DNA of 21,870 nucleotides from positions 1 to 21,870 of the IMG/VR virus record IMGVR_UViG_3300008113_002489; one strand, 5' to 3'. This DNA comes from a virus. The notes beneath the pieces were generated by a model that was given only the letters and a program-made list of their open reading frames with translations, did not search any database and had not been told where the DNA came from. The position numbers were made by a program, and so were the translations under genes. Of the stretch, positions 1 through 21,426 are shown piece after piece. The first letter of the stretch is position 1. Each line of letters opens with the position of its first letter.

Positions 1-3000
1 AGTTATGACCGCATCATCTGGGTTGTAAAGATATGCTGGAAGTCTGATGGTAGCAATGTCCATCGCACTTTCAACATTTGTTGGTTCTTTAGGATCTAAA
101 GAAGAAACACCTTTGATTAGAGAGAAATTGCCTAGAGTGTCTAAAACAATCTTATCAATTCTTGGCAAGTAATAACTATATCCAACAAGAGAACTTTCAT
201 TTGGGGTTACAACTAGAGATGGATTATTTCCAGAAGTACCAAATGTTCTACTTGAAAATGCAAATGGTGATGAAGTTGTAGATGTAAATGCTGAAACTCT
301 TGGTCTAAAATCTAGAGTATCGGAAGATCTCAAATTATTTCTTAAGATAGGTATATCTTTAGTGAATCTTTCCTGATCATATGACTCTACTGTATATAAG
401 TCACCCAAATCGTTCGCAGGAACAGTATAGTAATTATATACTACTAATAATTTTCTAGTTGGTTCTGGGAAATTGATTTTTCTGACAATCTTTGAATAAT
501 CATAATATTGTTCTTTTTGTCCTTTATCTAACTCAAATCTATTGGTTATATTTAAATAATTTCCTACAGTTATTGATTGGATATTTGATACAATATTTGA
601 TTCTTCAAAAGTAACTGTTTCACCTACGGAAAATGTCTGTGGGGTTAAGTAGCAAATTTCAACTTCAGTAGATGATGATCTTGTTGCAAGTTGTGCTATA
701 GCACCGCTTGTAGATCCTACAATTCTTTCACCCAATATTGAGTTAGTGTCTAATGAAAGACCAGAAACAAAGGTTAGTTTGTCTAGTGTTGGGTTTGAAG
801 TATCTAGAGATTCAAAGATCCCAACAACATTGACTACATCAGGAACATTTAAAGATATTTCTTTATCTTGAACTCTTAATCCATAGAATTGACTTGTGCT
901 TAATCCACTTAAAGCAGTTGAAATGCCAGAAACACTCTTATCAATAATAACTTTTTGACTTCTGATAAAATCTTTTTGCTTATTTCTAATAAGATTTTTT
1001 CTTACTGTCGTGTTGACAGTAACATTTGAAGATTGACTAGTTCTTAATCCAGAAAGAACAACTTGAGATCCATTTGAATTTAGAACAAATTGATCACTGG
1101 TTAAATCTTCAATATCACCATTGGAATAGTGTACAGAATATCTTTCTGCATCAAAAGTTTCAAAGAAAGCACTTGAAATTCCAGTAGAAGTTATATCCAG
1201 ACTCAATGACCCGATAGAATCCGTTGATAACTCACGAAGTTGACTTGTAACTAATAGATTTGAATTTGCTAAACTTACATCAGAAATATTTGACGCATCT
1301 AATGGAGCATAAAGTCCAGAACTTTCATTATCACTAATATTTGGTACACCTATTGAAAATGTAACAGATTGGTTGGTGGATGGTAACCCACCATTACATA
1401 CACCAAAAACACTGGAAACACCAGCAACTGTCATTGTCAATCCATCACTAGAAACGGAAACAACTCTATTATATGTTTCGGTTGTTAAACCAGATACTTG
1501 ATATCTGATAATGCTGTCACTTCTAATTCCTAAAAAGTTCTTTCCTGGGCAGGTAACTGTACCAGCACCTGTTCCTCCAGTAATAGTTAATCTGTCAGTA
1601 ATATTAAAACCATATGGAACTGATCTTTGTAAAACAGCATCCGCTACAAAAGATGTCTTAATTCCTGATGATACAGAAGTTGAGTTTTGGAAGATCGACT
1701 TAACATCTTGTGTTCCATAAACTTTTACAGAATTAATACTTCTAGTATATTCTGAAGTCTCATTAATAAGAATTTGTTCTCCAGCAATGAAAGAACCAGA
1801 AGTTTGAGTTAGAGTAAGTTCAGTTCCAGAAGCATCAGTAACAACATATCCAGAAGCTCCGCTACTAACACCTCTAATAAATGAAGATGCTGGGCACTGA
1901 CTAGAATTTAAACTCTGATTTAAAGTTAATTTAGTGTATGTTTGTACATCAAAAAGATATAATTCCCATTCTGTACCATCATTTGAATATGGAGCATCAC
2001 TTAAACTGAATGAATATACTCTTGCTTGACCAATTTCAGTGCCAGTTCCAGAAGCTTCTGATGCCTTTCTTTGGTTATAGAATGATACTGTATTATTATT
2101 TGTATTAATGCCAACAAATGGGGTGCCAGTAACATTATTTACTCTTAACAAATTACCCATTTCAAATGGAACCAAAGATGTTTCAACAGATGCTTTATCT
2201 CTTGGTTTCTCAACATCCAAAATGGTGGTTGCTTGTTTTTCAATGTCAAATCCCCTAACATACGCTCTACCTGGGGAAACTTTAACAGACATTAAATTGT
2301 CACTTGGAGTATTTCCAGAATCTGTCGTTTGATTTGACAAATAAATTCCTTCATTTGAAATACCATCATTTAATGAATTTGCTACTTGAATATTAAATTT
2401 ATCTACAGCATAATCACCAGATTCTTCATAAGTTCTTTTAGCAAAATAATCTTTGATAATTGAATACTCTGATTTATTTTGTAATTTCTTAATTTCTCCA
2501 CCATCAAGACGAATTAGTTCAACAAAACTTTTATCATTAAAATCTGTTAATGGTTTTTTTGATAAAACTGTTGAGATTTTTAGTCTATCTGCTCCAGGAG
2601 CAGCAAAGTTTGAAAATCCTCTTGCGTTGTCATATAGACTTGAATCATCTTTTGCCGTAACGATTTCTTCTAAAATATTCAATCCAACTCTATATGATGG
2701 AGTATTTGAATATGGATCAAGTACAATTTTATCAGTTGCTACATCTACAAAAGTTCCTCTAATAAAATAAACACCTTGTGATATTCCAACTGCACATCCA
2801 ATCGCAGATGCGTTCAGTGATACTAGAGTTGCTACAGTATCTCCAGCATTAATAGATGTATTGCCATATACAAAAGAATCTTCAGTTATTAATATTTCAC
2901 CATCATTTAGGGTTTTTACAACATTATCAGATCCAGAATTTAAATACTTAATAAAGAGAGTCAAGTCAGTAATTTCTGTTGATTCAGCAGCAAGAGCGTA

Positions 3001-3339
3001 ATTATCAACAACTACAGTAATTCCAGAATCTTGTCCTGTAAGTCTCTTCCCTACTAAATTTTCAACATACAGTGATACTGGAATTCCTAAATGATCACTA
3101 TTTAATCTGATAGAATAATATTCGGAATCATAATTAATATTTCCAGGGATCACCATAGATCCCTCTTTGAATATATGACTTCCGAACGACTCTATTTGAT
3201 TCTGTAATATTGACTGTAAAGTCGTTAATTCTCTAGCCTGTACTGGATATCCTGGTTTAAATAAAACCTTATAAAAATTATTATCCTTATCAAAATCGTC
3301 GTAATAAGGATTTATATTTAAATTAGTTTTCTGTGGCAT
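1..3339 (-). CDS. DUF4815-type virion structural protein, partial (3' end outside window)
   Basis: An uninterrupted minus-strand frame runs from an ATG at 3339 to the window edge (1113 codons, no stop when checked triplet by triplet). It starts MPQKTNLNINPYYDDFDKD and continues with RELTTLQSILQNQIESFG, the N-terminal signature I associate with DUF4815 structural proteins of T4-like cyanophages. Its place after gp8 is where such phages carry gp10-like baseplate or tail-fibre-network proteins. The visible part is rich in Ser, Thr, Val and Gly with many short beta-type segments, as expected of a virion protein. It begins 3 nt after the gp8-like stop, so it is probably cotranscribed with the wedge genes. 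The C-terminus cannot be judged. The family assignment is from recalled sequence similarity; the exact baseplate role is inferred. Confidence 0.85.
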   Translation of the reverse strand, partial: MPQKTNLNINPYYDDFDKDNNFYKVLFKPGYPVQARELTTLQSILQNQIESFGSHIFKEGSMVIPGNINYDSEYYSIRLNSDHLGIPVSLYVENLVGKRLTGQDSGITVVVDNYALAAESTEITDLTLFIKYLNSGSDNVVKTLNDGEILITEDSFVYGNTSINAGDTVATLVSLNASAIGCAVGISQGVYFIRGTFVDVATDKIVLDPYSNTPSYRVGLNILEEIVTAKDDSSLYDNARGFSNFAAPGADRLKISTVLSKKPLTDFNDKSFVELIRLDGGEIKKLQNKSEYSIIKDYFAKRTYEESGDYAVDKFNIQVANSLNDGISNEGIYLSNQTTDSGNTPSDNLMSVKVSPGRAYVRGFDIEKQATTILDVEKPRDKASVETSLVPFEMGNLLRVNNVTGTPFVGINTNNNTVSFYNQRKASEASGTGTEIGQARVYSFSLSDAPYSNDGTEWELYLFDVQTYTKLTLNQSLNSSQCPASSFIRGVSSGASGYVVTDASGTELTLTQTSGSFIAGEQILINETSEYTRSINSVKVYGTQDVKSIFQNSTSVSSGIKTSFVADAVLQRSVPYGFNITDRLTITGGTGAGTVTCPGKNFLGIRSDSIIRYQVSGLTTETYNRVVSVSSDGLTMTVAGVSSVFGVCNGGLPSTNQSVTFSIGVPNISDNESSGLYAPLDASNISDVSLANSNLLVTSQLRELSTDSIGSLSLDITSTGISSAFFETFDAERYSVHYSNGDIEDLTSDQFVLNSNGSQVVLSGLRTSQSSNVTVNTTVRKNLIRNKQKDFIRSQKVIIDKSVSGISTALSGLSTSQFYGLRVQDKEISLNVPDVVNVVGIFESLDTSNPTLDKLTFVSGLSLDTNSILGERIVGSTSGAIAQLATRSSSTEVEICYLTPQTFSVGETVTFEESNIVSNIQSITVGNYLNITNRFELDKGQKEQYYDYSKIVRKINFPEPTRKLLVVYNYYTVPANDLGDLYTVESYDQERFTKDIPILRNNLRSSDTLDFRPRVSAFTSTTSSPFAFSSRTFGTSGNNPSLVVTPNESSLVGYSYYLPRIDKIVLDTLGNFSLIKGVSSLDPKEPTNVESAMDIATIRLPAYLYNPDDAVIT

Positions 3340-3342
3340 TTT

Positions 3343-4476
3343 TTAGAATTCCAGGATAATTTTAACGTCTTCTTTTTGTCTAGAATTTCTCGTAATCAGT
3401 GAGACTCCAACATAATCTTTTTGATCTAATGTTGTCTGATTAAAGTATAAAGATCTATCTCTATAATATTTAAGTACTTTAGTCTCCGAATCATATGATG
3501 CGACATATCCGTGAGCAGATCCTCCAGTTACAGACTGACTGATCTTATCACCAATACTAACTGTTCCAGAAACTGAAGAAAACTTGATTGAATATAGCGA
3601 AGAAAACTGGTTTTCTGTAAATACAGAAGTTGATCCAATTGAAGTTGGATTTTTTAGAATACCAATTTGAGAGAATTTTGTATCAGTTGGAAAATCTTTG
3701 GTAGAATCATCAAATCTCGCATAAATTAAAATTTTGTCCGTTCCCAATTCTTTATATAAATCATATCCATGACCTTTTGAAGGTGGGATAATTGGGATTA
3801 ATTTGGCAAAATCACTAGTGGCGTTTGCGTTTATTGATCCAAGATCAACTATTCCATAGGTGTAATTTTTTCCACCAGAAGAAACAACGGCATTAGTAAT
3901 CTTTCCACTTACAACATCCAAAGATACCTTTCCACCAGTACCATCACCCAATATACTTACTTCCTGCCCAAGACCTCCAGAATAACCACTTCCTCTATTT
4001 TCAATATAAACTTTTTTAATTTGGTTATTATTTACCGTTGAATCCCCATTTTCTCTAACAGACTGAATTTGAGAATCGGTTGATGTTGACCAATTATTTG
4101 GAACAGAAATATACTCTGTTGAATCAAATTTAATTATATCGCTTGGAGACACGGTGAATAAGTATTTCCAGATATACCCATCACCACTTTCTCCAGCTCT
4201 AGATGGTTCTAAATCTGTAAATGTTGGTTCATCTTGGGAAGCGTTTCCAGTAGTGCTAATTCCAGATGAACCATTATCAATACAGATATAAACATTATAA
4301 TTACTATTCATTACATAGTAATTTGCGTCATAAAGTCTGGAAGACTGTGTGATTGGTGATGGGGATGTAACACTATAATCGTGGCGATACATCTCATATC
4401 TAGTTCCTTGAGCCCAATCAATTCTTCTTACCAATCTCCTAACATTGACGCTAGTGACCCTTTTTCCAAAGATCAT
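3343..4476 (-). CDS. 8: gp8-like baseplate wedge subunit, probably N-terminally truncated
   Basis: 377 aa. T4 gp8 is a baseplate wedge protein of similar length (about 334 aa). Matching features are an RRIDW motif near residue 20, a YDANYYV segment near 50, a GDGYIWKYLF motif near 100 (compare GDGYVWEYLF in T4 gp8) and a C-terminus ending in DVKIILEF (T4 ends EEINILFTF). Residues about 149-212 hold two copies of the GSGY/GKNY beta module also found in the gp7-like protein. The N-terminal segment that normally precedes the FGKRV motif (with an FIGR..PW-type sequence in homologues) is missing. The frame extends only a few codons above the ATG (SHVSDTM) before running out of phase into the gp7-like end. 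The ATGA overlap with the upstream stop therefore looks like a product of a deletion rather than natural coupling. Confidence 0.82.
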   Translation of the reverse strand: MIFGKRVTSVNVRRLVRRIDWAQGTRYEMYRHDYSVTSPSPITQSSRLYDANYYVMNSNYNVYICIDNGSSGISTTGNASQDEPTFTDLEPSRAGESGDGYIWKYLFTVSPSDIIKFDSTEYISVPNNWSTSTDSQIQSVRENGDSTVNNNQIKKVYIENRGSGYSGGLGQEVSILGDGTGGKVSLDVVSGKITNAVVSSGGKNYTYGIVDLGSINANATSDFAKLIPIIPPSKGHGYDLYKELGTDKILIYARFDDSTKDFPTDTKFSQIGILKNPTSIGSTSVFTENQFSSLYSIKFSSVSGTVSIGDKISQSVTGGSAHGYVASYDSETKVLKYYRDRSLYFNQTTLDQKDYVGVSLITRNSRQKEDVKIILEF

Positions 4477-7400
4477 AGTGTCAGAAACATGACTAAGTCA
4501 ATTGTAAACCCTGTAACACCAATAGAAATTGGTGAAGTTGATCTTGTAAATCCAGATAATCTTCCCCAAGAAAACTTACCAATTGGTTGAGAAGTGCTTC
4601 CAGAAGTATTGATGCCAATAATATTTGATCCAGAATTTACATTAGTTACAATTTCAGAATTAGATCCACTTGATGTAATTGAGTGAATATAGTACACATT
4701 ATCCAGGAATGTTGTTCCGATTCCAACGGTGTCTGAATTGCTACTATCAATAGAAGTAACTCCAGTTCCGACAGAAGTGTCAAAAATGTACAGTGGATAT
4801 CCAGTCTCTAATCCAACAAAAGAAGATGAATTTAAATAGAATTTGAGTGCTAGAGGATTACCTAAAGTACCGGTTGTAGTTGTAATTCCAGTAACGATAC
4901 CAGAGAAACCTTCAACAGATGTGATTGAATTTATATCTTCTTTAATTGGAGATGGTAGTGGAGCAAGAACTTGTGGTGGGGCACTTTGAGTATATCCAAA
5001 TCCAGGATTTACGATTGTGGTTGAAGTAACCTGACCATTTGTCAACGTAGCTGTTGCAGTAGCAGTTGTTCCAACACCAACACCAATAGACTGTGGAGAA
5101 GATATTGAAATGGTTATTGATGATCCAGAATATCCACTACCCGAGTTTGTAATACTTAAGGATTGAATTGTTCCAGCGGAAGAAACCACTGCGGTAAATC
5201 CAGCAGCAACTGGAGATGATCCAGAAACTATTAGTCCACCAACGCTAGAAATAACCAAGGCAGAATTATTCTCTTCATAATTAAAGAATTGGGCATCATC
5301 TACAAATAATTGAGTATCTGATGTTGATAGATTTTTAATTATTCTACTAGTTGGATAAACTAAAGACTCAATTGAATCTCTAGACTTATAGACAAGTTCC
5401 CCATTAATTACTTTATCAATTTTTTGTTTTGTCCAACTTAATGGTTTGAAGTTTACTTCATCAATGCCTTGATCAATATATAAATTTGTTTCTACTTTAT
5501 CTGATGTTGTAATATTATAAATTGTTCTAACATTTTGATCTATTGTTCCAGAATAATTGTTATTTTTAAGAACCTGAACCAAATCACCAGTTTTAATAGT
5601 CTCATTTACTGATACTGTCAAACTATCAGTTCCAGATGTTCCTTTATAGAAAAATACAGAGATATTATCCTCTGGTTCTGGTGCTACGGCAAATGTAAAT
5701 GATGTACCACCTTCAAACTGATAAGACTCTCCAGGTGTTTGAAGAACTCCATTTACAAATATCAATAATAGAGAATTAAGATCTATTAGAGAAGAATCTG
5801 GATTGTTTGGATCTGTCTCAAAACTCAATAACTGACCATTATAACTTAATGGGAATCTAGTTCTAATGCCATTTTGTAAGTCTGTAATTGGATCTATAAA
5901 ATCAAATTCTCCAAATTCCCATGATGTCAACTTATCAGTAAATACATCTAGTACTGTTAATTCAAAATTACTTAATGGAGATGCTAAATTTCTATCGGTA
6001 ACAAGTCCAACAGGTGTAAATACATCTCCAACCTTAAATTGATATCCAGGTCTATTAATACTAAATGATGTTACTTCAAACAAAGTTGATCCTATTCCTG
6101 TTGTAGTGCTGGATCCAACATCAACAGAAAGTAGTAGACCAGATCCTGTTTCAGTAGTAGATCCAATACCAAGTCTTGACACACCAGTTACCTCAAGATT
6201 TTGGTATGATGGTGCAGAAACAAATATACTTGGATTTGTATATCCAGTTCCAGCAGATCCAACAGTAAATGCTAGTGTTCCACCAGCACCAACAATTGCT
6301 GTTATAGAGGCAACATCACCAATATGACCACTTTCATGAACAGAAACGCCTATTGATACAAGTCCATTGTATCCAGATCCAATTATATCAGTAGTTCCTA
6401 GACCAACAGACACAATAGAACCACCAGCACCCACTACAGCAGTCACAGCAGCACCTACAAGAGGAGCGATACCTAGTCCACCAGTAGATCCCAGAGAAAC
6501 AATTACACCACCTCTTGGAAGTTGGTTTTGATTAATATCAGAAGTGCTCTTAACAAGTGATCCATTGGATGAAGTAATGCCAGTGAAAACAACACTAGAA
6601 ATACCAATATTTTCAATGAATGAATAGTTATTTCCTGTATTATTTGATGATGATGGTTTTTGGAATATTCCATTCAATACTAGAATTCCACTTCCAGTTT
6701 GTATTCCAGTTGTATTGATACCCTGAACAGTAACTGTATATGTTTGGCCAATTCCAGTAAATCTGTCGGATATGTCATCAAAAATTCTATTATTGGTATA
6801 GTCATTTCTTAAATAGACTCTTCCATCAAAGCTTGATCTAATAAAGTCTAGATTGGAAGAATCTTTTAATGATGTATTTGTTCCTTTAGGAGCATCTGTA
6901 AAGTAAATGTTGCTACCAACAATATTAAAAGATCCAGAGTAAATTCTTACTTCGGTTCCATCGGTATGAGTTGTTGAAGATGATCCGACAAATCCTCTAG
7001 ATACTTCTAATAGTGGTACAGATCCAGATCCAGTTATAGGTCCAACGGAGGTTGTTCCTACACCAACAGATACAACCTTCATATATTCATCATCTACTTT
7101 TAAGATATCAGTTGGAGTGATTGAAGATATTCCAGAAACACCAAAGATAGTAGAAGATGCTGTTATTTGTCCACCATTATTATTCAAAGTTGTGTTTATT
7201 GGTGTGTATGATAGTGGTGATTGGATAATACCGTCAATGTCAATTAAACTCTTTTCAAGTTTTTTGTACATCTCAAGTTCATGAGAATTTCCAGACCCTA
7301 AAGTGGTAAATGTTACATAAATTCCTGCGGAAGCAAAATCACTCCTAGTAGAAAGTCTAAATTTATCTTTGTTAATTCTTATTGCATAAACATCTTCTGG

Positions 7401-8750
7401 TAAAATATTGGTAACAATTCCCACAGAATTTTGTGTTGATCCAATACCAACAGAAGAAGCGGCAACACCGACAAAGGTTGAATTTGCGGTATAAATTAGT
7501 CTTTCTCCAGTATTAAAGAAATGATCCTTAATCGTAAATATTCCAGTTGATGGATCTAAAACAGAAGTATTTGATGGGTTGAATTTCTTTTCAAAGATAG
7601 GAACTCCACCATGCTTAAGTTCAAAAACTGTTTTATTAGATCTATTTCCATTAATTGCGTTATATTGTACAAAAGATAGAGATTCTGTTACAGAACCATA
7701 CAATAGATCTGGTGCTGGATTTACTGTGCTTCCGATTGATACAAATGGATATTGTGTGCTATATGTGTTTTCACCATTATGCATCATCAAGACTTGATGT
7801 ATAGCACTTGTTGCCCCATATGATACTCTTATCAAGTTTTTGACAGAGGTAACTTCGGATGTACTAAATCCAACTATGGTTGAAGCAGAGGAAACATTTA
7901 CATAATTTGACTCTAATTTCAAAGATCTTTCTGTGCCATCAATTTGTGATGCCTCTTTAAATCTGTATGTTCCAATTCCAGATGCAGTTGTCCCAAAACC
8001 AACAATTTTTGATCTTAATAAAATTTCATCAGATGTATTATTTTCATAATTTAAATACAAAATTCCACTATTAATTAAAGATGTAAAAGTTCCTATAAAG
8101 TTTGAAGAATATCCAGACTCTGATTCAGTATCAATATAATAATCAGAGAAGTATGAATTTGTCCCATCATGAGAAATATACAATTCAACAAAATTCTTTT
8201 CTAAAGTAGAATTATTGACAACTTCAACAGAAGCAAAATATGAATCAGTATTTGAAATATTATCTGATATCAATTCAGAAGTTTGACCAGAACTTACAAC
8301 TCTATTAACACCAGTTAGATCTACAAATCCAATGCTTTGTGTAGAAATTCCGGCAAGATCTGTATTAAAAGTATTTTTGAATACTTTTATGTCATAATCA
8401 TCTTCATATGGATCTGCTGGACTAAATCTCAATGAGGTATTGCCAAATTCATCAATATTTGATGCGACTTCAACTAATTGTTGTGATGTATTGTATAATT
8501 TAGATTTTTCAAAAGTAAATGCATTATTAGAATCTTTAAGAAGAACTAGTTCAGAAACTTGTAAGTCATTATTATTTGGATTTTTTATTTGAACAATAAA
8601 TCTAGAGTATTGCTCATCAATGAACAAGTCAGAATACTCATTTAGTGATGATAGTGAATTTGAAAACTGTGAACTTATATCATCTATTTTTAGAACTCTA
8701 TTTGTTTTACACTGAATATAATCAGATAACTTTTTATTCTTTAACTTCAA
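4473..8750 (-). CDS. 7: gp7-like baseplate wedge protein, C-terminal fragment (frame-disrupted)
   Basis: 1425 aa counted from a TTG at 8750. This is not a credible start: the frame opens further upstream (DVDTITNSSTKSKF, from about 8792), directly where the middle fragment loses phase. The KNKKLSDYIQCKTNRVL segment is, from recall, an internal region of cyanophage gp7-like megaproteins. The body is Ser/Thr/Gly/Val-rich with recurrent GIGTT and GSGYT motifs, a Gly-rich stretch at about 770-880 and a pair of GSGY modules near 1190-1265. The end has a family-typical FSWGRLSGFTRS segment near 1390, but then stops at VMFLTL; the usual C-terminal tail appears lost in the junction with gp8. With the two preceding fragments it would form one baseplate wedge protein of well over 3700 residues. 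Confidence 0.75.
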   Translation of the reverse strand: MKLKNKKLSDYIQCKTNRVLKIDDISSQFSNSLSSLNEYSDLFIDEQYSRFIVQIKNPNNNDLQVSELVLLKDSNNAFTFEKSKLYNTSQQLVEVASNIDEFGNTSLRFSPADPYEDDYDIKVFKNTFNTDLAGISTQSIGFVDLTGVNRVVSSGQTSELISDNISNTDSYFASVEVVNNSTLEKNFVELYISHDGTNSYFSDYYIDTESESGYSSNFIGTFTSLINSGILYLNYENNTSDEILLRSKIVGFGTTASGIGTYRFKEASQIDGTERSLKLESNYVNVSSASTIVGFSTSEVTSVKNLIRVSYGATSAIHQVLMMHNGENTYSTQYPFVSIGSTVNPAPDLLYGSVTESLSFVQYNAINGNRSNKTVFELKHGGVPIFEKKFNPSNTSVLDPSTGIFTIKDHFFNTGERLIYTANSTFVGVAASSVGIGSTQNSVGIVTNILPEDVYAIRINKDKFRLSTRSDFASAGIYVTFTTLGSGNSHELEMYKKLEKSLIDIDGIIQSPLSYTPINTTLNNNGGQITASSTIFGVSGISSITPTDILKVDDEYMKVVSVGVGTTSVGPITGSGSVPLLEVSRGFVGSSSTTHTDGTEVRIYSGSFNIVGSNIYFTDAPKGTNTSLKDSSNLDFIRSSFDGRVYLRNDYTNNRIFDDISDRFTGIGQTYTVTVQGINTTGIQTGSGILVLNGIFQKPSSSNNTGNNYSFIENIGISSVVFTGITSSNGSLVKSTSDINQNQLPRGGVIVSLGSTGGLGIAPLVGAAVTAVVGAGGSIVSVGLGTTDIIGSGYNGLVSIGVSVHESGHIGDVASITAIVGAGGTLAFTVGSAGTGYTNPSIFVSAPSYQNLEVTGVSRLGIGSTTETGSGLLLSVDVGSSTTTGIGSTLFEVTSFSINRPGYQFKVGDVFTPVGLVTDRNLASPLSNFELTVLDVFTDKLTSWEFGEFDFIDPITDLQNGIRTRFPLSYNGQLLSFETDPNNPDSSLIDLNSLLLIFVNGVLQTPGESYQFEGGTSFTFAVAPEPEDNISVFFYKGTSGTDSLTVSVNETIKTGDLVQVLKNNNYSGTIDQNVRTIYNITTSDKVETNLYIDQGIDEVNFKPLSWTKQKIDKVINGELVYKSRDSIESLVYPTSRIIKNLSTSDTQLFVDDAQFFNYEENNSALVISSVGGLIVSGSSPVAAGFTAVVSSAGTIQSLSITNSGSGYSGSSITISISSPQSIGVGVGTTATATATLTNGQVTSTTIVNPGFGYTQSAPPQVLAPLPSPIKEDINSITSVEGFSGIVTGITTTTGTLGNPLALKFYLNSSSFVGLETGYPLYIFDTSVGTGVTSIDSSNSDTVGIGTTFLDNVYYIHSITSSGSNSEIVTNVNSGSNIIGINTSGSTSQPIGKFSWGRLSGFTRSTSPISIGVTGFTIDLVMFLTL

Positions 8751-8776
8751 AAACTTGGATTTGGTTGAACTATTTG

Positions 8777-10858
8777 TTATAGTGTCAACATCAATAAACG
8801 ATTGACTGGATTAATAAGAGTTTCAAACTCAATAGGACTTTTTATTGTGTACGATAATGATTGGTAATAATCATTGTCTGGTAAAAGTTGATAATCCTCA
8901 TCTAGTTTTCCAGTATTATCTGACCATCCATAGTCTTGTCTTACAGAATAATTTACATTAAATCTTCCGAAATTATCTACAACATCATTAATAGTTGCTG
9001 TCGATCCACTGATGGATCCCTTTATAATTTCATTTAAAGTTAATTGATAATTACCACTAATCTTGATATAATCATCACTACTTTCCGTAATAAACAAATC
9101 AATAACTACATACTGACCATTTGTTAAAGAAAGAAGTTGTTCACCAACTTGGAACAGTGAAGATCTTTGTATTGTTTTAAACCTTGGATAATCATCATAT
9201 TTTACAATGGAAGCATATGAGTTTTGAGACGTTTTGGCTATTCCAGCATTGGTTGTAATTCCAGATAAGTTAAACTCAACTTCTGCTGGATTGGTATTTC
9301 TATAGGCAGAAACGGTGAAGAATTGGTATTCGTGATCTGGTGAATTAAATCCTTCTCCAGTAGATCCATATTTCTGAATACCCTCAACAAATATTTTTTC
9401 ACCAACAGAAAATACTGATGTGCTAAATCCGGAAATTGGAGTTACAAGCACACATGTGACAATACCAGTAGATGATGATTGTACAGTGTTAATTGTTGTA
9501 CCATTGCTATTATTGATAGCAATAATTGACTGCTCTACAGAAGTTAATCCCTTTGGCGATTGTACTATGTCAACCGATGATATTGAAGTTCCATTTAGAT
9601 TGGAATTAACTATTCCAGTAATAACTTGTTGACCAGTTTGTGGATTGACAATAATCAAATCTGGTGCTGTTGTGTAGTTTCTACCTCCAGATAATACTTC
9701 AATATTAACAATCTCATTAGAATCTACAAGAGAAACAACTGGAGAAATAAATGCTTCTGGTCTCAAGGTCTTATCAGAAGAATATTCAAATCCAGGATCA
9801 ATTATTCTAACATCATCAATTCTATTAATATTTGCTGATTTTGGTAAAATTTTAGCATTAATACCCTGAGTAGATGCTATACTTACAAAAGTTGGTAATT
9901 TTTTATATCCAAAACCGCCAAAAGTTATTTGAAGAGAATCAACACCACCTCTAGCAGTTAAGGAATTTGTAGAATATTTTAGAACTTCAGTATTTGATGT
10001 ATTATATTCTAAAGATTCTGGAATCTCTTTTAGAGATATATTAAATGTTGTTGTTCCAACTCCAAAAACATTATATTTGTTTTTATAAACACTATCAATA
10101 TATGATATTTGAGAGTGATTAACCACATCAGTATCAGATGTACTAATATAACCCGCCTTTTCTAAAGTGTAGAATAGATTTGTTGGATTATTTGAAGAAT
10201 AATTTAATGTTAATGTCGCATTCGTTGAAACTCCTACTGTTCCTACTCCAGAAACTAGGAATGTTTCTGTAGATCCTGTAGATACAAATTCATTATTGAA
10301 TTTTGAGTCATAGAATAATTTGAATTTATATCCAGACAGAGAAGAATCTGAAAGATCAAAAACAAGATTATTGTTTCTTACAACTGATATTTCTGGATTT
10401 ATCAATGATAGTTGGTGGTTAGATCCACCAGTTGATCCAAGACTGACAATAGTTGGTGGATACTTAACTGCATCCGAATAAGTTTCTGTCAGTTTAATAT
10501 TATTAGAGTCTATTCTATAAACAAAATACTCACCCGTACTTAATCCACTAGAAACTAAATTAGAGTCATAAAAGACTTTATCGCCAGTTTTTAACCTGTG
10601 TGCATTTATTGTAATTTCATTGTTCGTTAAATCTACAGATGAAGATGAAAACCCTACAGGATCTATTAAAATTTGATTTCTTAATTGATTATATACTACT
10701 TTTACGGAACCAGAAGTTCCAATTCCAACTGATTGGTCTGGATTTACTTGGAGATTTATTTCATCACCATTTACCAAAGAGTGAGCGGTTGAAACAGATA
10801 CTGTAGTAGTAATTTTTTGTGCTGTTCCAGTTACCTGTGTGAAATTAGATTCAAACAA
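8777..10858 (-). CDS. 7: gp7-like baseplate wedge protein, middle fragment (frame-disrupted)
   Basis: The frame translates to 693 aa from a TTG at 10858, but that codon has no ribosome binding site. The same frame reads back through NGSDLFDYL to about 10882, where it meets the out-of-phase end of the N-terminal fragment. ESNFTQVTGTAQKITTTVS is, from recall, an internal segment of cyanophage gp7-like proteins. It contains an AHRLKTGDKVFYDS module (about 80-155) and several GFGY/GFEY/GRNY modules (about 300-430), like its flanking fragments. The homologous part ends at INPVNRLL, after which MLTL and a stop follow. The next expected segment (an HTSGLKNF-type sequence in homologues) is absent. 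I interpret this as the central third of one broken gene and not as an independent protein. Confidence 0.72.
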   Translation of the reverse strand: MFESNFTQVTGTAQKITTTVSVSTAHSLVNGDEINLQVNPDQSVGIGTSGSVKVVYNQLRNQILIDPVGFSSSSVDLTNNEITINAHRLKTGDKVFYDSNLVSSGLSTGEYFVYRIDSNNIKLTETYSDAVKYPPTIVSLGSTGGSNHQLSLINPEISVVRNNNLVFDLSDSSLSGYKFKLFYDSKFNNEFVSTGSTETFLVSGVGTVGVSTNATLTLNYSSNNPTNLFYTLEKAGYISTSDTDVVNHSQISYIDSVYKNKYNVFGVGTTTFNISLKEIPESLEYNTSNTEVLKYSTNSLTARGGVDSLQITFGGFGYKKLPTFVSIASTQGINAKILPKSANINRIDDVRIIDPGFEYSSDKTLRPEAFISPVVSLVDSNEIVNIEVLSGGRNYTTAPDLIIVNPQTGQQVITGIVNSNLNGTSISSVDIVQSPKGLTSVEQSIIAINNSNGTTINTVQSSSTGIVTCVLVTPISGFSTSVFSVGEKIFVEGIQKYGSTGEGFNSPDHEYQFFTVSAYRNTNPAEVEFNLSGITTNAGIAKTSQNSYASIVKYDDYPRFKTIQRSSLFQVGEQLLSLTNGQYVVIDLFITESSDDYIKISGNYQLTLNEIIKGSISGSTATINDVVDNFGRFNVNYSVRQDYGWSDNTGKLDEDYQLLPDNDYYQSLSYTIKSPIEFETLINPVNRLLMLTL

Positions 10859-13800
10859 ATAATCAAATAAATCTGATCCGTTTTGAATGGGTGGTTTGGT
10901 AGATATATGCTTTGAGAAGGTATTGAAATTACCTCTAAAATTTCACCTTTAGTGTAATTAACTGAAGTTCCTACACCAACAACTGTGCCAACACCAACAG
11001 ATTCATTTGGATTAAAGTAAAACTTATCATTAACTTTAGAATCAAAATAGTCTGATTCTACTGGTAGTGTTATGTAACTTGGAATTAAATCAACAAAAGT
11101 TGATGCTGTGTGTGCCGATCCAGTTACACCCCTCTTTACTCTTAAAATACTTCTATCACTAAATCTGTTTAAAACCAAAAGTCTTTCAGTTCCAATACCA
11201 ATACTACTTCCAATTGAAATAGAATTTGGAATAGATGAAACATAAATGTCAGTTACAACTCCAGCGGTTGCATTCGCAGATATTTCTTTATAGACAACAG
11301 TTCTTACAGTGTTAACCCCAACAACATGAGATCCAGTTAATGCTCTTATCTCTGTCGATAATCCAGATACAACAACACTATCTGCGTTATTAAAAGTATG
11401 TGATGTTGAAATATAGGCTGAAATCTGCTTTGAGTTGTCCCAAACAAAAACTACACCATTGTATTCTTTAATTGATGTTTGAAGATTTGTTATAGATTTT
11501 CCAGTGATGGTTTTAACATAAGCACTTAATCCACCACCACTAGTTCCATCATTGTCAAATTCAACAGAATCTCCGATTTTGTAATCACTTCCTGGTTCTA
11601 CAATTTGGAACGAATCAACAGATCCTTTGGTTACTGAATCAACAACGGCTGTCTGATCAACATATTCATTTGACTCAATAATAAAATCATTATCAGCATA
11701 CAAGTCTGCTACTTTATATGGAAAAGTATTTCTAATTAAGTTTGAATTATTAAAGTCAAAAGAGGATTGGTTTATTTCAAAATTTTCTTGAATTGGATTT
11801 GATCTGTAGGTATTTCCAATAAAATATGGATATTTTGGATCTAACTTTCCAGAAGATGGGTTTGTATTTACACCGACAAAGTATGCATATGTTCCCTCTG
11901 GATAATCTGGAGTTTTACAATATCTACCGTTATTTTCATCCAAGTCCCCAGAATTTGTAAATTTATAGTCGTCTACAAAAAATCCTATACTAAATCCAGA
12001 AGGTCTATTCTCTATATTTGATGAACTAGAAGTATATCCAGTTTGTAGTAAAGTAATTCCAGAATTTTCGTCAGATGGATTACTATATCCATATGGTCCA
12101 TATATTGGATTACCGTCATATGCCCATCCAATTATTGGAGAGTGATTTAAACCACTGTCACCAAAATAATTTTTACCTATGTTAGTTGAGTATCCAACAA
12201 CAGAATATTCTAAATTATTTTCAGTATCTACAAAAAGATCTGATCCATATCTTTCAAAATTGTTTATTGATAATCCTCTGATTTTTGGTTCAATAATTGC
12301 TCCAGATCCTGGAGGTGTAATTTGAATAGTTGTTTTATCAGTAGTGTAGTTTACACCAGAATTTAATACTATAACTTCGGAAATATACCCATTTGACACG
12401 ATTGCTCTTAATTTTGCTCCAACACCATCACCATTTACTTTTAAATCTGGAGCAGCATTATATTCAGAACCTTTACTCTGTATCTCTACAGATGATATTC
12501 TACCATTGACGATAATGGGTTTTAATTGAGCATTTTTACCATTTTTTATGGTAAGTGTTGGTGTTTTTTCAAGATTTAATATATCAGACCCATACCCACT
12601 ACCACCTTCATATACATAAGCATCTATTATTGATCCACGAACGATAGGTGTTGCTGTAATAACTCCTGTTGTTCCCGAATATTCTACATTGATGTTTACT
12701 TGTATCTGTGGGTACTCAAAATTATGATATCCAGATCCAACAGAACTGAAGTGAACATAATTTTTTCTAATATAATTTGAAGTTATAGTTCCACCTATGC
12801 CAGCATCAGCAAGTCTAAATGAATTGTTATCAACTTTAATAACATAGTATTGTCTAGTTGTTGTTAAACCACTGATAGTAGATCCAGTGGAAGAGTATTT
12901 TAGTAGTTCACCATCACTAAAGTTATGATTTACAAAATTGACAGATGATGTATATGTGGATATTCCTGCTGGTTTTACAATTAGTTTTCTGTTCTGATAA
13001 CCACTTCCAGGATTTAAAACTTTAATTGAACTTAATGTATTCTTTGTATCATAAACTCTAAACTTATGTACGCCAATATTACTTGCTGTAGTAAATCCTA
13101 CAGTGTTTATTCCAGCACTATAATCATAGGCAGTTTGATATAGTTTAATCGTAGTTGGATTAACAATTTGTGAATAATATACTGAACCACTCTGTAATGT
13201 TAAATTTTGATCAGTATTTAATCCACCAAAAGTTCCTATGCTTACAGGATTATTTCCATTTTTATTATAAACAATTGCCTGACCATTAGATAAGTTATGA
13301 TTATTTAAAAATGTTAATGTTTCATTATTAACATCAATACCACCAGATTCTGTAATTAGTCTAGCATCAAATGTCAATTCTCTGTATCTGTTTGAGATAA
13401 TTGGCTCTAATACTACCCCACTACCATTTCCACCAGTTACAGTAACAGAAACTATTTTTTCTATATCAAAATCTTGCGGATCAACATAAACGGCAGTTAC
13501 AACTCCACTAACAACTGGTTGAATAAAGCAAGTTGTTCCAGAACCAGAGGTGGATACTTGGATGGTTGGTGGATTTATAACATCATAGTTTGTTCCACCA
13601 TTTAAAACTTTTGCTGTTTCTATTGGACCATAGAAAATTTTATCATCAGATTTATAATTGCTAATCTCAACACCATTGATTAAAATGCCTACAGTTCCAG
13701 GATTAGTTTCTACATTATTACCAGATTTAATATTTGGCAATAATGGAAACTTTTTAAGTAACTTTTGTGGACCTAATTTCTTACCAAAATCTTTGAGAAG

Positions 13801-15816
13801 GGTAAATGTATGTGATCCAGTTCCGGACTGAAGTGGTTCAAATTCAACATAATCATCAATAGGTATAAATGACCTAGAAACATAAAGTCTTATTTGATTT
13901 TTATTTGTCAGTACCTTTACATAATAAATTCCTTCATTCAATCCAGTAATTGATGCTGTTTGTGGAGAATAGTAAACTGCATCTCCAGTTATAAAAGGAA
14001 CATCTGAAGCAAATGATAAAATTGAATATTTAAGAGTTGTAGTGCTATATCCCTGAATACTACTACCAGTAGCTTCGGTTAAAGTTGCTGATGAAACATT
14101 CTTTGTTATTTCATATGATGGTAGTGAATTTGATGCAACATAAAGATATTCATCAGAATCATTATAAACATTTTGTATGTCTGATGTTATTACATTATTT
14201 CCAAATTCTATTTCAGCCCCAACACTATGTGCCTTGTTTAAAGACCTTCTAATATCATATGAGAGTCCTACAACTGGAGTAAATCCAGATAAATTGTCTA
14301 AAATAATTTCTTTAGTGTTTGTGTTTATATTTTGTACGGTCGCACCACTTACACTGACATTTTGAGTTCCTCTAGCTAAAATGTCTACAGTATCTCCTTC
14401 TTTTAGACTTGATTTATCAATATTTGAATAAAGTACAAAAGTTGATCCAGAGATATTATTTACTTGATATCTTGATGATGTGTTGTAGATCCAAGAATTT
14501 GAAAAAATTTGTTTTCTAGTTTTTTCTAGTTCTGGATTAACAATATTTTCTCCAAGATTTTTGACAAATATTTTTTCACCTTCCGAAGTCAGTTTAATAT
14601 CTGAAATTGGTACAAAATTTGATAATACTCCAGTAATTCTTAATTCAACTTTTTTAGTAATATCACCATTTTCATATCCGTATATAACTTCATTTGATCT
14701 TAAGTCTGTTGTTGAATCAATAGCAGAAATAATTCCAGTACAGTTCAAAAACTGATTAACTGTTTTATCATTGTAAGTAACTGTATTGTCTCCACAAATA
14801 AAGGTTCCAGAAGTACTAAACCCTACTGTAGAATCAACAGTAATTACCGATGATTCTATTGAGACATCTCCGATTACTTTCGTTTTTCCGGGAATAGTAA
14901 AAGACCCTTCAATAAGATCTTGTTCATTAAATCCAACGAATAATCCGAGTTTATAGTAAGTCTTACCTTTTCTTGTAATTATTTCAACTTCAGATACTGA
15001 AGCTTGACTCTCTTCATCTGAAGAATTTTTAATTGTTTGTCCAACTAATTTATTTGGATCTCCAGAAATTCTTTCTGCAATTACAATTTCTCTTCTAATA
15101 AATTCTGCTGCCGAAGGTTTTAATAGGTATTCTTCAAGATCAATTACCTTTGGTGTAACACCATATAGAACATTAAAAAGAATTCTGAAAGATTCTTCAG
15201 TTCCTTTAGACTGATAAAATACTTTTGATTCTTTGATGAAATTACTTACATCTAAATTAGAAACAAAATCTGCGTTTTCTAATCCAGGAGTAAGACTATA
15301 CTTAATTTTCTTATAAAACTCCTTCAAAAAGAGAGCACTTAAATTAGATACAGGAGCACCAGAGGTATGTGATGCCGATAATGAAGTTGAAAAAACTAAT
15401 TCGCCGGGAGAATTGTCAGCATGATATGAAGTTATACCACTAAACCCACGAATACAACCCGTGAATGTGTTTGTGGTAATTCCAGTATATGTGATTATTT
15501 CATCATTAATTTTAAACAAACCATATTGGTTTGGAAATCCTTTAGTACTTGTTACTTGAATCGTTGAATCTGTACTGGTTACATTTGCGGATAAAGATGT
15601 TTCGCCAGTAATTACTTCTGGAGTAAGATTATCTAACTTTAGATATTGATCTAAATTATCTACAATATCAACAGTTCCACCAGTAAACTCTTGTGATATG
15701 TAATACTGTTTTAAAAATTCTGCTGCCTTTGGACTCTCTGATAAAATAAATTCTGGAAGTTGATTCTCAACAATTTGTTGAATTTGTACTTTTGATTCAA
15801 ACCCGGTTGCTATCAT
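10831..15816 (-). CDS. 7: gp7-like baseplate wedge protein, N-terminal fragment with YHYH-like domain
   Basis: 1661 aa with a genuine start: ATG at 15816, AGAGGAT as ribosome binding site, 1 nt after the gp6 stop. Its position after gp6 and its N-terminus (QIVENQLPEFILSESP, then FLKQYYISQEF, residues 13-44) match the gp7-like wedge proteins of T4-like cyanophages; it is larger than T4 gp7 (about 1032 aa). Residues 80-135 and about 315-365 carry GF...NDEIITYTG...CIRG modules. Residues about 1055-1175 hold serial GSGY/GSEY/GVNY beta modules. HSPIIGWAYDGNPIYGPYGY at 1225-1244, with LDENNGR further on, resembles the YHYH domain. The family-like sequence stops at IYLPNHPFKT; the last ~15 residues (DQIYLII to the end) are out-of-frame translation past a junction near 10880. 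Structural role in the wedge is inferred from family and synteny. Confidence 0.82.
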   Translation of the reverse strand: MIATGFESKVQIQQIVENQLPEFILSESPKAAEFLKQYYISQEFTGGTVDIVDNLDQYLKLDNLTPEVITGETSLSANVTSTDSTIQVTSTKGFPNQYGLFKINDEIITYTGITTNTFTGCIRGFSGITSYHADNSPGELVFSTSLSASHTSGAPVSNLSALFLKEFYKKIKYSLTPGLENADFVSNLDVSNFIKESKVFYQSKGTEESFRILFNVLYGVTPKVIDLEEYLLKPSAAEFIRREIVIAERISGDPNKLVGQTIKNSSDEESQASVSEVEIITRKGKTYYKLGLFVGFNEQDLIEGSFTIPGKTKVIGDVSIESSVITVDSTVGFSTSGTFICGDNTVTYNDKTVNQFLNCTGIISAIDSTTDLRSNEVIYGYENGDITKKVELRITGVLSNFVPISDIKLTSEGEKIFVKNLGENIVNPELEKTRKQIFSNSWIYNTSSRYQVNNISGSTFVLYSNIDKSSLKEGDTVDILARGTQNVSVSGATVQNINTNTKEIILDNLSGFTPVVGLSYDIRRSLNKAHSVGAEIEFGNNVITSDIQNVYNDSDEYLYVASNSLPSYEITKNVSSATLTEATGSSIQGYSTTTLKYSILSFASDVPFITGDAVYYSPQTASITGLNEGIYYVKVLTNKNQIRLYVSRSFIPIDDYVEFEPLQSGTGSHTFTLLKDFGKKLGPQKLLKKFPLLPNIKSGNNVETNPGTVGILINGVEISNYKSDDKIFYGPIETAKVLNGGTNYDVINPPTIQVSTSGSGTTCFIQPVVSGVVTAVYVDPQDFDIEKIVSVTVTGGNGSGVVLEPIISNRYRELTFDARLITESGGIDVNNETLTFLNNHNLSNGQAIVYNKNGNNPVSIGTFGGLNTDQNLTLQSGSVYYSQIVNPTTIKLYQTAYDYSAGINTVGFTTASNIGVHKFRVYDTKNTLSSIKVLNPGSGYQNRKLIVKPAGISTYTSSVNFVNHNFSDGELLKYSSTGSTISGLTTTRQYYVIKVDNNSFRLADAGIGGTITSNYIRKNYVHFSSVGSGYHNFEYPQIQVNINVEYSGTTGVITATPIVRGSIIDAYVYEGGSGYGSDILNLEKTPTLTIKNGKNAQLKPIIVNGRISSVEIQSKGSEYNAAPDLKVNGDGVGAKLRAIVSNGYISEVIVLNSGVNYTTDKTTIQITPPGSGAIIEPKIRGLSINNFERYGSDLFVDTENNLEYSVVGYSTNIGKNYFGDSGLNHSPIIGWAYDGNPIYGPYGYSNPSDENSGITLLQTGYTSSSSNIENRPSGFSIGFFVDDYKFTNSGDLDENNGRYCKTPDYPEGTYAYFVGVNTNPSSGKLDPKYPYFIGNTYRSNPIQENFEINQSSFDFNNSNLIRNTFPYKVADLYADNDFIIESNEYVDQTAVVDSVTKGSVDSFQIVEPGSDYKIGDSVEFDNDGTSGGGLSAYVKTITGKSITNLQTSIKEYNGVVFVWDNSKQISAYISTSHTFNNADSVVVSGLSTEIRALTGSHVVGVNTVRTVVYKEISANATAGVVTDIYVSSIPNSISIGSSIGIGTERLLVLNRFSDRSILRVKRGVTGSAHTASTFVDLIPSYITLPVESDYFDSKVNDKFYFNPNESVGVGTVVGVGTSVNYTKGEILEVISIPSQSIYLPNHPFKTDQIYLIICLNLISHR

Positions 15817-15817
15817 C

Positions 15818-17605
15818 TTATATCCTCTTTAGTTCTCCGTTTAGATAATTTGATGTTACTTTAAACCCGATACCAGATATTTGTTCACCAGAAGATATAG
15901 TATCTTTAACCATATTTATGGTACTATTGGCAACATCACCCTTTGTATAATCAATAGTTCCAGCAGACTTAATTACAACGATATTATCAACTCCATTTGG
16001 GTTTTGTTTTACAATAGACATTGTACCCATGCCACTTCCATCAAGATTTCCGTTTGAATCTTTATTTGGAACATCTGTCAAATAAACCGTATCCACTTCT
16101 CCAGAAATTCTAAATCCAGTACTCTTAATATTGAACCCCTTTGGATTGATATGGAATTGATTTCCAAAGCACAATTCATACTGTGCAAATTGATTTACCG
16201 CTGCCTTTAGATTTCTTCTAATAATGACTCTGGTGATGTTAGATGTGATTGCCGTATCCACATCATCAATGATCCTAACTAATTTACTATATTTGAATCT
16301 ACCACCAAATTTATTAACATCTGTTGAAGAAGCATAAGTTGTAAGAGCATTTGTTACTCTTGTTTTTAGATCATTAACATTTGAAACTTTAGGTGAGTCA
16401 TAATACACCGCAGAATCTACTTCCACATACAAAACTTTTAGATCTACGATTGATTGATTGATTCCTGTTAATGAGTAATTTTTTAACTTGCTTAAAATTT
16501 GTTGCTTATCAAAGTCAGAAACATAATCACCATTTTTTGGTTTAATACTGATAAGAACTGTACCAAATTGTGGTGGATCTAGTTCCTCGCCACCAACTAC
16601 TGATACTGATTCTGTATTTGGATATATTTGTTGAATAATGGACTCATAATCTCTTCCAGTGACTGCTCTATACTGTGAAGAATAAAGTCTTGGTGCAAAA
16701 TATTTGATTGAATCAATAGTTTCAATATCACCGCCATTTGATGATGATTGTATTGTAAGAACTGATACGGTTGATGATGGAGTTACAATTTCATCAGAAG
16801 AACCTCTTAATGATCCCGAGAAGGAAAATAATGATGCTCCATTGCCATCTTTACCATCAGTGACAATATAGGTTACTGTGATGACGGTTCCATTTTCTAG
16901 TTTTTTACCGAATATTCCGTCTCCAAATAGTAACTCATATTTTTCATCTTTAATTTCTTGAATCAAAAATGTTTCTGAAGTACCATTTAAATTCAGGATG
17001 TTGTCTACTAATGTATATTCTCTACCCAAACCAGTATCAGAAATACCCTTTACATAAACGACAATTGTTGATGTATCAATGAAAGAGTTGTCAAGAATAA
17101 ATCTTTGGTCTAAAGATCCATCAACAACAAATTGATTACGAAGAAGAGTTCCTTGATAGATGTTAATACCACTAAAGGATGCTACTCCATTAGTGACTGA
17201 TGTTGTAATAGTTTCTGGAATTGAGAAAGTATATGTCGTGTCTTCAACTCCACCAACACACACTAGACCCGCCTGTAAGGTTAGTGTTGGACTTGTTGTG
17301 GTAGTTGGTACATTAAACGATACAACCGCCTTTGACGCCGATCTGGAGCGGGGTACATAACCGATATTTCTTGCTAGAGAAACAACATTTTCTCGTAAAG
17401 TCGCAGAGTCTAGAAAAGACTCATTTACGACCATATTGGAATTAAATGCCGTAATATATGTGTTATACGCTAGAGTGTCAATTAAAACTGAAAAGTTTGA
17501 TCCTTCAAAATCAAAATCAGTAAAGTTTGAATTCGCACGAAGATAATCCTTTATTGAGGTTTTGATCTGATCAAAATCTAGATTGGTAAACTGTGTAAAA
17601 GGCAT
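15818..17605 (-). CDS. 6: Baseplate wedge protein gp6
   Basis: 595 aa, against about 660 aa for T4 gp6. In T4, gp6 is the dimeric core of each wedge and forms the continuous inner ring of the baseplate. The N-terminus has the conserved DFEGSNFSVLIDTLAYNTY block (31-49), followed by an NESFLDSATLRENVVSLARNIGY block (about 61-83) typical of the gp6/baseplate-J superfamily. A central segment (RAVTGRDYESIIQQIYPN, roughly residues 310-330) is the usual J-family motif. The ATG at 17605 follows the gp25 stop by 1 nt, and its own stop precedes the gp7-like ATG by 1 nt, so gp25, gp6 and gp7 form a tightly packed operon. I see no frame damage here. Confidence 0.93.
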   Translation of the reverse strand: MPFTQFTNLDFDQIKTSIKDYLRANSNFTDFDFEGSNFSVLIDTLAYNTYITAFNSNMVVNESFLDSATLRENVVSLARNIGYVPRSRSASKAVVSFNVPTTTTSPTLTLQAGLVCVGGVEDTTYTFSIPETITTSVTNGVASFSGINIYQGTLLRNQFVVDGSLDQRFILDNSFIDTSTIVVYVKGISDTGLGREYTLVDNILNLNGTSETFLIQEIKDEKYELLFGDGIFGKKLENGTVITVTYIVTDGKDGNGASLFSFSGSLRGSSDEIVTPSSTVSVLTIQSSSNGGDIETIDSIKYFAPRLYSSQYRAVTGRDYESIIQQIYPNTESVSVVGGEELDPPQFGTVLISIKPKNGDYVSDFDKQQILSKLKNYSLTGINQSIVDLKVLYVEVDSAVYYDSPKVSNVNDLKTRVTNALTTYASSTDVNKFGGRFKYSKLVRIIDDVDTAITSNITRVIIRRNLKAAVNQFAQYELCFGNQFHINPKGFNIKSTGFRISGEVDTVYLTDVPNKDSNGNLDGSGMGTMSIVKQNPNGVDNIVVIKSAGTIDYTKGDVANSTINMVKDTISSGEQISGIGFKVTSNYLNGELKRI

Positions 17606-17606: not shown

Positions 17607-18008
17607 TTATCTTGTTGCCTCTAGGATAAATGTAAATTCTTGTGTTGGGAATTCTTGTCCAATAATATCAAAAAATATTGTTGCCTCAAACTCATTAGTA
17701 TCAGGTCTAGGATTTACTTCAACAACCACATTTTCAACTCTGCTTTCAAAGTTTTGTATTGCTAATTCAATTTGATTTTGAATAATTGACGCAGTACCAT
17801 AATCAACAAATTCAAAGAGACTACTACGCACATCAGATCCAAAAATTGGATTGAAAAATTTTTCTGTAGGAATAGTCTCTACGATGTTCCTGACAGATCT
17901 CTTTATTGCGTTTTCGTTTCTCAATATGGGTAAATCCTTTGTAACCGGATGAGGTTCAAAGGATAAACTAATATCTTTAAATGATCTAGATATCCTTTGT
18001 ATTGCCAT
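17607..18008 (-). CDS. 25: Baseplate wedge protein gp25
   Basis: 133 aa, almost exactly the length of T4 gp25 (132 aa). It is a gpW/gp25-family wedge component with a lysozyme-inhibitor-like fold that links the wedge to the sheath initiator. Visible family features are the NENAIKRSVRNIV helix, the FNPIFGSDVRSSLFE motif (about 52-66) and the C-terminal VEVNPRPDTNEFEATIFFDI beta segment. The ATG at 18008 lies 20 nt after a consensus T4-type late promoter (TATAAATA), giving a very short predicted leader with no obvious Shine-Dalgarno sequence. It is the first gene of the baseplate operon and its stop is 1 nt from the gp6 start. Confidence 0.93.
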   Translation of the reverse strand: MAIQRISRSFKDISLSFEPHPVTKDLPILRNENAIKRSVRNIVETIPTEKFFNPIFGSDVRSSLFEFVDYGTASIIQNQIELAIQNFESRVENVVVEVNPRPDTNEFEATIFFDIIGQEFPTQEFTFILEATR

Positions 18009-18349: not shown

Positions 18350-18676
18350 TTAACGATCAACCTCACGCAGAGAATATGAGTCGGAATTGAGGTATTTTAA
18401 GATTTCTAGGGCAATAAGGCGAGGATTTCCTTCTCCACAAGTGTATACATCCACTGCCAAACAACCGTTTTCTGGCCAAGTATGACATGAAACATGACTT
18501 TCAGAGAGTGCAATGACAACTGTACACCCTTGTGGAATAAAACAATGGGCAAATGTGTTCAAAATTGTCATTTTAGCACGTTGAATACCTCTAATCATGA
18601 CGTTTTGTAGCGATTCTACGTCATTAATCAGGTCAAAATCCACATCGTACACCTCTAGGAGCAGGTGTTTGCCCAT
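18350..18676 (-). CDS. speD: S-adenosylmethionine decarboxylase proenzyme (SpeD)
   Basis: 108 aa from the ATG at 18676. The enzyme decarboxylates S-adenosylmethionine to supply aminopropyl groups for spermidine synthesis; the proenzyme self-cleaves to generate a pyruvoyl cofactor. The sequence has MGKHLLLEVYDVD at the N-terminus and LSESHVSCHTWPENG in the middle. The cleavage pair is E59-S60, with H65 and C80 in VYTCG as the processing and catalytic residues, close to the S63/H68/C83 layout of the Thermotoga enzyme. I prefer the ATG to an upstream TTG (18706), because the family begins at this point and the TTG lies at the expected transcription start of the late promoter. A recurrent host-derived metabolic gene in T4-like cyanophages, here intact and just upstream of the baseplate operon. 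Confidence 0.92.
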   Translation of the reverse strand: MGKHLLLEVYDVDFDLINDVESLQNVMIRGIQRAKMTILNTFAHCFIPQGCTVVIALSESHVSCHTWPENGCLAVDVYTCGEGNPRLIALEILKYLNSDSYSLREVDR

Positions 18677-18712
18677 TGAAAACTGTTCCAAGTCAATTTT
18701 TAGCAAAAAATG

Positions 18713-20657: not shown

Positions 20658-20818
20658 TTTGAGACTATGAATTATGTTTTTTGTTTTATATATGACTTTA
20701 TAGTTCTCTCGCGTCCGTAACACTTTGTAGGTTACAGGGACCCAGTGGTTTTATATACGGGGGCGACCCCCGAACCGCATAAGAACGGGGGCACTGCTGG
20801 GTCACGAACGAACAGGGG
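20658..20818. other. Intergenic stretch with G/C hairpin, no gene
   Basis: This gap of about 160 bases contains the composition switch, a GTAAC-N9-GTTAC inverted repeat near 20716-20734, and a GGGGG-CGA-CCCCC hairpin at 20759-20771. An acgggggc direct repeat follows about 28 bases on. I see no convincing coding frame. The hairpin could end transcription from the 60-aa gene, although no U-run follows. Confidence 0.4.
20700..20760. other. Abrupt AT-rich to GC-rich composition boundary
   Basis: To the left is AT-rich phage coding DNA (runs such as ttttttttcattttgag), and to the right is GC-rich DNA with G/C tracts. A 10-bp direct repeat gttttatata occurs on both sides (20683-20692 and 20748-20757). 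There is no tRNA or integrase gene here. It could be a junction of two sources or the edge of an acquired segment. Confidence 0.65.
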
Positions 20819-21001
20819 TCACCAGGTAGGCAGTGCCTCCTGTGCCTCATCACGCCAGACATCAGCGAACTGACCAGCGATGGCATAGGCAGAGATGCCC
20901 AACTGGGGCTGAAGGCGCGACCCCATGGCGGAGTCATCATTGCCACGGGCAGTCCAAACGATCTGACGGGTACGGAGGTCGGAAGACTGGGAGAGGATCA
21001 T
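20819..21001 (-). CDS. Hypothetical protein, 60 aa, in GC-rich stretch
   Basis: 60 aa from the ATG at 21001, beginning MILSQSSDLRTRQIVWTARG and ending DVWRDEAQEALPTW. A longer frame reaches 21067, but the ATG at 21001 is favoured because a TACAAT promoter-like box lies 24 nt upstream of it, inside the longer version. There is no Shine-Dalgarno sequence, which is common for cyanobacterial genes. Predicted soluble and mainly helical; no domain recognised. It follows the HicA-like gene in the same direction but seems to have its own promoter. Confidence 0.55.
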   Translation of the reverse strand: MILSQSSDLRTRQIVWTARGNDDSAMGSRLQPQLGISAYAIAGQFADVWRDEAQEALPTW

Positions 21002-21009
21002 GGGGGTCC

Positions 21010-21040
21010 GTTGCGGATGAGAGTATTGTAGCAGATCAGG
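21010..21040 (-). promoter_or_regulatory. Promoter-like box of the 60-aa gene, copy 1 of a repeated element
   Basis: On the minus strand CCTGATCTGCTACAATAC precedes the 60-aa gene. TACAAT (21025-21030) is a good sigma70 -10 hexamer; no clear -35 is present. The upstream CTGATC carries the stop codon of the HicA-like gene. It is nearly identical to the element at 21728-21758, including the following CGCAAC. Confidence 0.55.
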
Positions 21041-21257
21041 ACGCTTTGGCGGCGAGCATGGCGGCATGAAATTTTAGAAATTCATGGGACATGCCAGGGG
21101 AGAGAGTGGGTCGTCCTTTGCTGCCATGGGTGGGAAGGTGGAAGGTCTGGGGTAGGTTCGGGTGGGTCACTTTGTCGTGACTGCCACCCGACCGAATGAC
21201 GCCGCCTGCCTTTTGAATCAAGCGGCGGGCGTCACGAACTTTGATCGGGGATGCCAT
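21036..21257 (-). CDS. HicA-like mRNA interferase toxin
   Basis: 73 aa. HicA toxins are small double-stranded-RNA-binding-fold ribonucleases that cut mRNA and are blocked by HicB. The order here fits: an N-terminal helix (IKVRDARRLIQKAGGV, residues 5-20), a first strand ending in the GSHDKVTHP motif (25-33) with the expected catalytic His in GSH, and a second strand TFHLPTHGS (38-46). The C-terminal part (PTLSPGMSHEFLKFHAAM) is longer than in typical HicA and only loosely matches the final helix. ATG at 21257, 9 nt after a 45-aa acidic ORF. No HicB homologue is visible in the window. The fold assignment is from motif reading only; a degenerate or non-toxic relative is possible. Confidence 0.62.
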   Translation of the reverse strand: MASPIKVRDARRLIQKAGGVIRSGGSHDKVTHPNLPQTFHLPTHGSKGRPTLSPGMSHEFLKFHAAMLAAKAS

Positions 21258-21261
21258 GGCG

Positions 21262-21267
21262 GTATCC
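21262..21267 (-). promoter_or_regulatory. Possible -10 box of the HicA-like gene
   Basis: ATCTGGTAGGATAC, ending about 6 nt before the HicA-like ATG, matches 11 of 14 bases of ATCTGCTACAATAC in the neighbouring promoter-like elements. The hexamer would be TAGGAT. If used, it would give an almost leaderless toxin transcript starting inside the gene. It overlaps the stop of the 45-aa ORF. Confidence 0.3.
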
Positions 21268-21404: not shown

Positions 21405-21426
21405 GGTGTTGTGTGTTGACTGAATC

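Follow-up and report, generated by a model that had tools for sequence, protein, structure and literature searches.

Organization of the baseplate module

The sequence analysed here, which we call the window, comprises bases 1-21,870 of the 22,625-base IMG/VR record IMGVR_UViG_3300008113_002489, whose source virus is an aquatic T4-like cyanophage. On its minus strand lies a baseplate module in the order gp25-gp6-gp7-gp8-DUF4815-like. The gp25-like baseplate wedge gene (17607-18008; PF04965, E=3e-12) shows no lesion, and it is followed by a gp6-like wedge gene of 595 codons (15818-17605; PF21379), by the gp7-like region, by a gp8-like wedge gene (3343-4476; PF09215, Phage-Gp8) and by a gene for a DUF4815 structural protein (1-3339; PF16075, E=6e-42), the frame of which is open at the contig start and runs for 1113 codons without a lesion. 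A gene for S-adenosylmethionine decarboxylase, an enzyme of polyamine synthesis, is found beside the baseplate genes at 18350-18706 (PF02675, E=1.7e-30).

The gp7-like region is divided among three open frames, as the original prediction had read it: a first fragment of 1661 codons (15816-10831), a second of 693 codons (10858-8777) and a third of 1425 codons (8750-4473). The first fragment carries a YHYH domain (PF14240, E=4.5e-25), which to our knowledge is unusual in a baseplate wedge protein. When the second fragment was compared by tblastn, it matched 94 phage records, 93 of them over at least 80% of its length, with 35-50% identity among the matches listed. The annotated matches are to gp7, or baseplate wedge initiator, of Synechococcus and Prochlorococcus phages, with up to 50% identity, and the fragment aligns near its full length with gp7 of cyanophages P-SSM2, S-SRM01 and S-SKS1 at 40-50% identity. 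The region thus has the similarity of a gp7 and its position between gp6 and gp8, but unlike the annotated cyanophage genes it is split in the record at sites that are continuous in relatives. We judge the gene of the virus to be a gp7, of which the copy in the record is incomplete.

Comparison with a near-identical contig

One other contig, IMGVR_UViG_3300008448_007360 (hereafter L002; 15,833 bases), proved to be the same sequence over window positions 1-14512. The alignment consists of six exact blocks that contain neither a substitution nor a small indel, and the only difference is that L002 carries five further segments between the blocks, of 213, 294, 132, 151 and 202 bases at window positions 3400, 4496, 7725, 8795 and 10880, respectively. 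In L002 the third gp7 fragment is contiguous with the rest of the gene, and gp7 forms a single open frame of more than 3,527 codons that is still open at the contig edge. Its gp8 is whole as well, with 521 codons from stop to stop, and outscores the window copy against PF09215, while its DUF4815 frame is identical to that of the window. The original prediction had looked to another assembly with a continuous gp7-like frame to overturn it, and L002 is such an assembly, although its 100% identity allows it to have come from the same sample as the window.

The comparison defines five junctions exactly. At junction 1 (3400/3401), 213 bp are absent in frame within gp8 and the ends share a 2-bp microhomology. 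Junction 2 (4496; 1-bp microhomology) lacks 294 bp, a stretch that runs from the last ~26 codons of gp7 through the spacer into the first ~61 codons of gp8. The window gp8 is therefore shortened at the N-terminus and, through junction 1, also internally near the C-terminus, by about 132 codons over the two gaps. Junction 3 (7725/7726) lacks 132 bp in frame within gp7, without microhomology. At junctions 4 (8795/8796; 151 bp, no microhomology) and 5 (10879-10882; 202 bp, 4-bp microhomology) the frame of gp7 is shifted by -1. A sixth junction, at 15929-15945 (about 15,936), lies beyond the end of L002, where the nearest relative is ~91% identical; here the window gp6 lacks 120 bp of its C-terminal part without a change of frame, as seen in the alignment with the contig IMGVR_UViG_3300011268_000687 (L058). 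About 40 codons are lost from gp6 in this way, whose length in relatives is 640 codons from stop to stop against 595 in the window.

These junctions change the picture drawn from the reading frames. The original prediction had described three -1 breaks in the same direction, each with loss of a segment, confined to gp7 and flanked by clean neighbours. Segments are indeed missing at all three breaks (202 bp at about 10880, 151 bp at 8795/8796 and 294 bp at 4496), but only the 151- and 202-bp losses, both of which leave a remainder of one when divided by three, shift the frame. Since 294 is divisible by three, the loss at 4496 keeps the frame; the -1 appearance there is the natural offset between the gp7 and gp8 frames. 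The in-frame loss at 7725/7726 had been missed, together with those in gp8 and gp6; the losses of 213, 132 and 120 bp all keep the frame and are therefore invisible when frames are read. As for the neighbours, gp25 and DUF4815 look clean, whereas gp6 lacks 120 bp and gp8 lacks 213 bp and its first ~61 codons. Homopolymer single-base errors as the cause of the breaks were ruled out, since whole segments are missing relative to L002.

Distribution of the segments among relatives and selection

A scan of viral contigs gave 55 relatives, and every locus was compared with every other. None of the six losses of the window recurs in a relative. At each site the relatives that can be aligned carry the segment: 23 at junction 1, 17 at junction 2, 21 at junction 3, 22 at junction 4 and 23 at each of junctions 5 and 6. 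The losses are thus not due to chance. No cluster of losses like that of the window was seen in any other contig of the relative set. The other large size differences found in gp7 among the relatives are of 216, 306 and 237 bp, all multiples of three, unlike 151 and 202, and in relatives with the whole gene gp7 is mostly one frame of about 3,900-5,500 codons. Two contigs of a strain ~91-95% identical to the window, L058 and IMGVR_UViG_3300011268_000533 (L003), jointly carry all six segments. L003 differs from the window in two frame breaks that are its own and lie in gp7 and gp8, at about 2570 and 7933; each consists of a single additional base and resembles an ordinary sequencing error. In four other relatives, too, the frame of gp7 or DUF4815 is broken (L009 at 6197-6248, L018 at about 12940-13542, L048 at 5398 and L050 at 9647-9675).

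Relative to another of these contigs, L004, pN/pS was 0.13-0.22 in three of the missing pieces and 0.18-0.23 in the pieces that were kept, and a fourth missing piece holds 26 gp7 codons without an amino-acid change. The missing segments are coding, are conserved like the kept ones and are under the same purifying selection. The extra substitutions or relaxed selection of a decaying pseudogene were not seen: the window has no substitution relative to L002, and pN/pS is about 0.2 throughout the lineage.

Repeats and junction sequences

The original prediction had held gp7 to be full of internal repeats and had suggested that direct repeats of about 6-8 bp might be found at the deletion ends. At the DNA level this is not the case. 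No 20-mer is repeated in the intact 15.8 kb of L002, repeated 16-mers cover 0.6% of it, and no deletion end in that contig has a repeated word of at least 13 bases within 20 bp. The longest shared words near the deletion ends are of 5-7 bp, against a null mean of 5.5 at random sites (P=0.43). The microhomologies at the five exactly known junctions amount to 2, 1, 0, 0 and 4 bp, a total that is reached in 17% of trials when segments of those sizes are cut at random from L002 (P=0.17). The words spanning junctions 2 (34-mer), 3 (40-mer) and 4 (40-mer) had no second carrier in 2.9 million viral contigs, a set that may not include the record itself.

Directly after the end of the window, at contig positions 21871-21887, the record contains a run of 17 N's. 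This run is an explicit scaffold gap and, because of it, the record must be regarded as a scaffold. The relatives diverge at this gap. The right end of the window (20700-21870, continuing to about 21.9 kb of the contig) is a block of ~53% G+C that adjoins the phage module of ~32% G+C and contains a DUF7249 frame and a HicA-like frame just below the Pfam cut-off. A chimeric join at about 20.7 kb was considered and rejected: L058, the 91% relative, continues through the block at ~90% identity, and parts of the block have matches in other contigs. On this ground it seems to reflect real mosaicism and not a chimera.

Origin of the missing segments

We consider that the split gp7 and the losses in gp6 and gp8 are an artefact of scaffold joining and not biology, with a probability of roughly 0.9. 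The record would be a scaffold built from about eight contigs of a single cyanophage, correctly ordered and oriented. Of its seven joins, six would each lack an unsequenced stretch of 120-294 bp, left out without N's, while the seventh keeps its 17 N's. Two of these omissions, not being multiples of three, would split gp7, one would span the gp7/gp8 boundary and three would keep the frame. The segments were probably dropped during scaffolding or when N's were removed, and not through a change in the DNA, as we infer from their being missing in this record only. Several observations agree with such an origin. The junctions are private and the record holds an N gap; for junctions 1-5 a contig of the same strain, L002, has the segments and is otherwise identical; the missing segments share the purifying selection of the kept ones; the 151- and 202-bp losses are unlike the size differences seen in gp7 of relatives; and chance-level microhomology and flanking repeats are what is expected of arbitrary contig ends. 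The record resembles the scaffold gap or misjoin artefacts of metagenome assemblies in its correct order, its lost inter-contig stretches, its random ends and its run of N's, but differs from them in having six joins without N's. That one gap kept its N's when six did not counts against this explanation, and we can name no software that behaves in this way; nor does junction 6 have an intact contig of the same strain. A search of the literature on scaffold gap errors yielded nothing useful.

The original prediction had offered, besides an artefact, the real decay of a defective phage. Deletions in gp7, gp8 and gp6 of a cyanophage that was carried by helper phages or had recently died would be consistent with their presence in the record, and the microhomology, which reaches 4 bp at one junction, would be normal for illegitimate recombination. 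However, such a phage would have acquired five deletions and not one substitution in the 14.5 kb shared with an intact contig (14,512 identical bases), the deletions would all fall within the narrow range of 120-294 bp, and they would have struck essential baseplate genes while the remainder stayed pristine. The missing segments are moreover conserved, and the junction words that were sought (2, 3 and 4) occur in no other contig. Decay is poorly supported and, in our opinion, very unlikely. Even less likely is a deletion-bearing variant that shares a water body with its intact counterpart, for example as defective particles that live off the intact phage, and that would have to combine six short deletions in adjacent baseplate wedge genes with no point mutation.

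Amplification chimeras, such as those of multiple displacement amplification, join nearby sites with little homology and might have become fixed in a low-input library. Yet six independent chimeras would each have had to outnumber the intact molecules, and none of the six is inverted, so we place this possibility lower still. Of the repeat-driven artefact that had originally been proposed, the artefact is supported but the mechanism is not. The gp7 protein does have repeat-like stretches rich in glycine and serine, which would favour assembly collapse or repeat-mediated recombination in a repetitive gene. With ends at chance level and no repeats, however, neither process fits: the direct repeats that repeat-mediated deletion leaves at its ends are missing, the junction overlaps of 0-4 bp are far below any assembly k-mer, and simple repeat-driven collapse is refuted by the repeat scan of L002. 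We regard such processes as less probable again than chimeras. Finally, the same direction of shift at two breaks might recall programmed -1 frameshifting, or an intron-like removal, by which several proteins are made from one gene. The missing segments are conserved coding sequence, and in L002 and all relatives that can be aligned gp7 is free of these breaks at the sites concerned, which refutes programmed frameshifting and leaves this class of explanation with a negligible chance of being right.

Implications

With omission at scaffold joins as the preferred explanation, the record indicates no new biology and is of little biological interest in itself. It does call for caution: half of the losses leave the frame intact, so that checks based on reading frames catch only part of the damage, while comparison with a contig of the same strain finds all of it within the shared stretch. 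Claims of domain loss made from this record would be wrong, and gp6, gp7 and gp8 are most likely intact in the phage itself.
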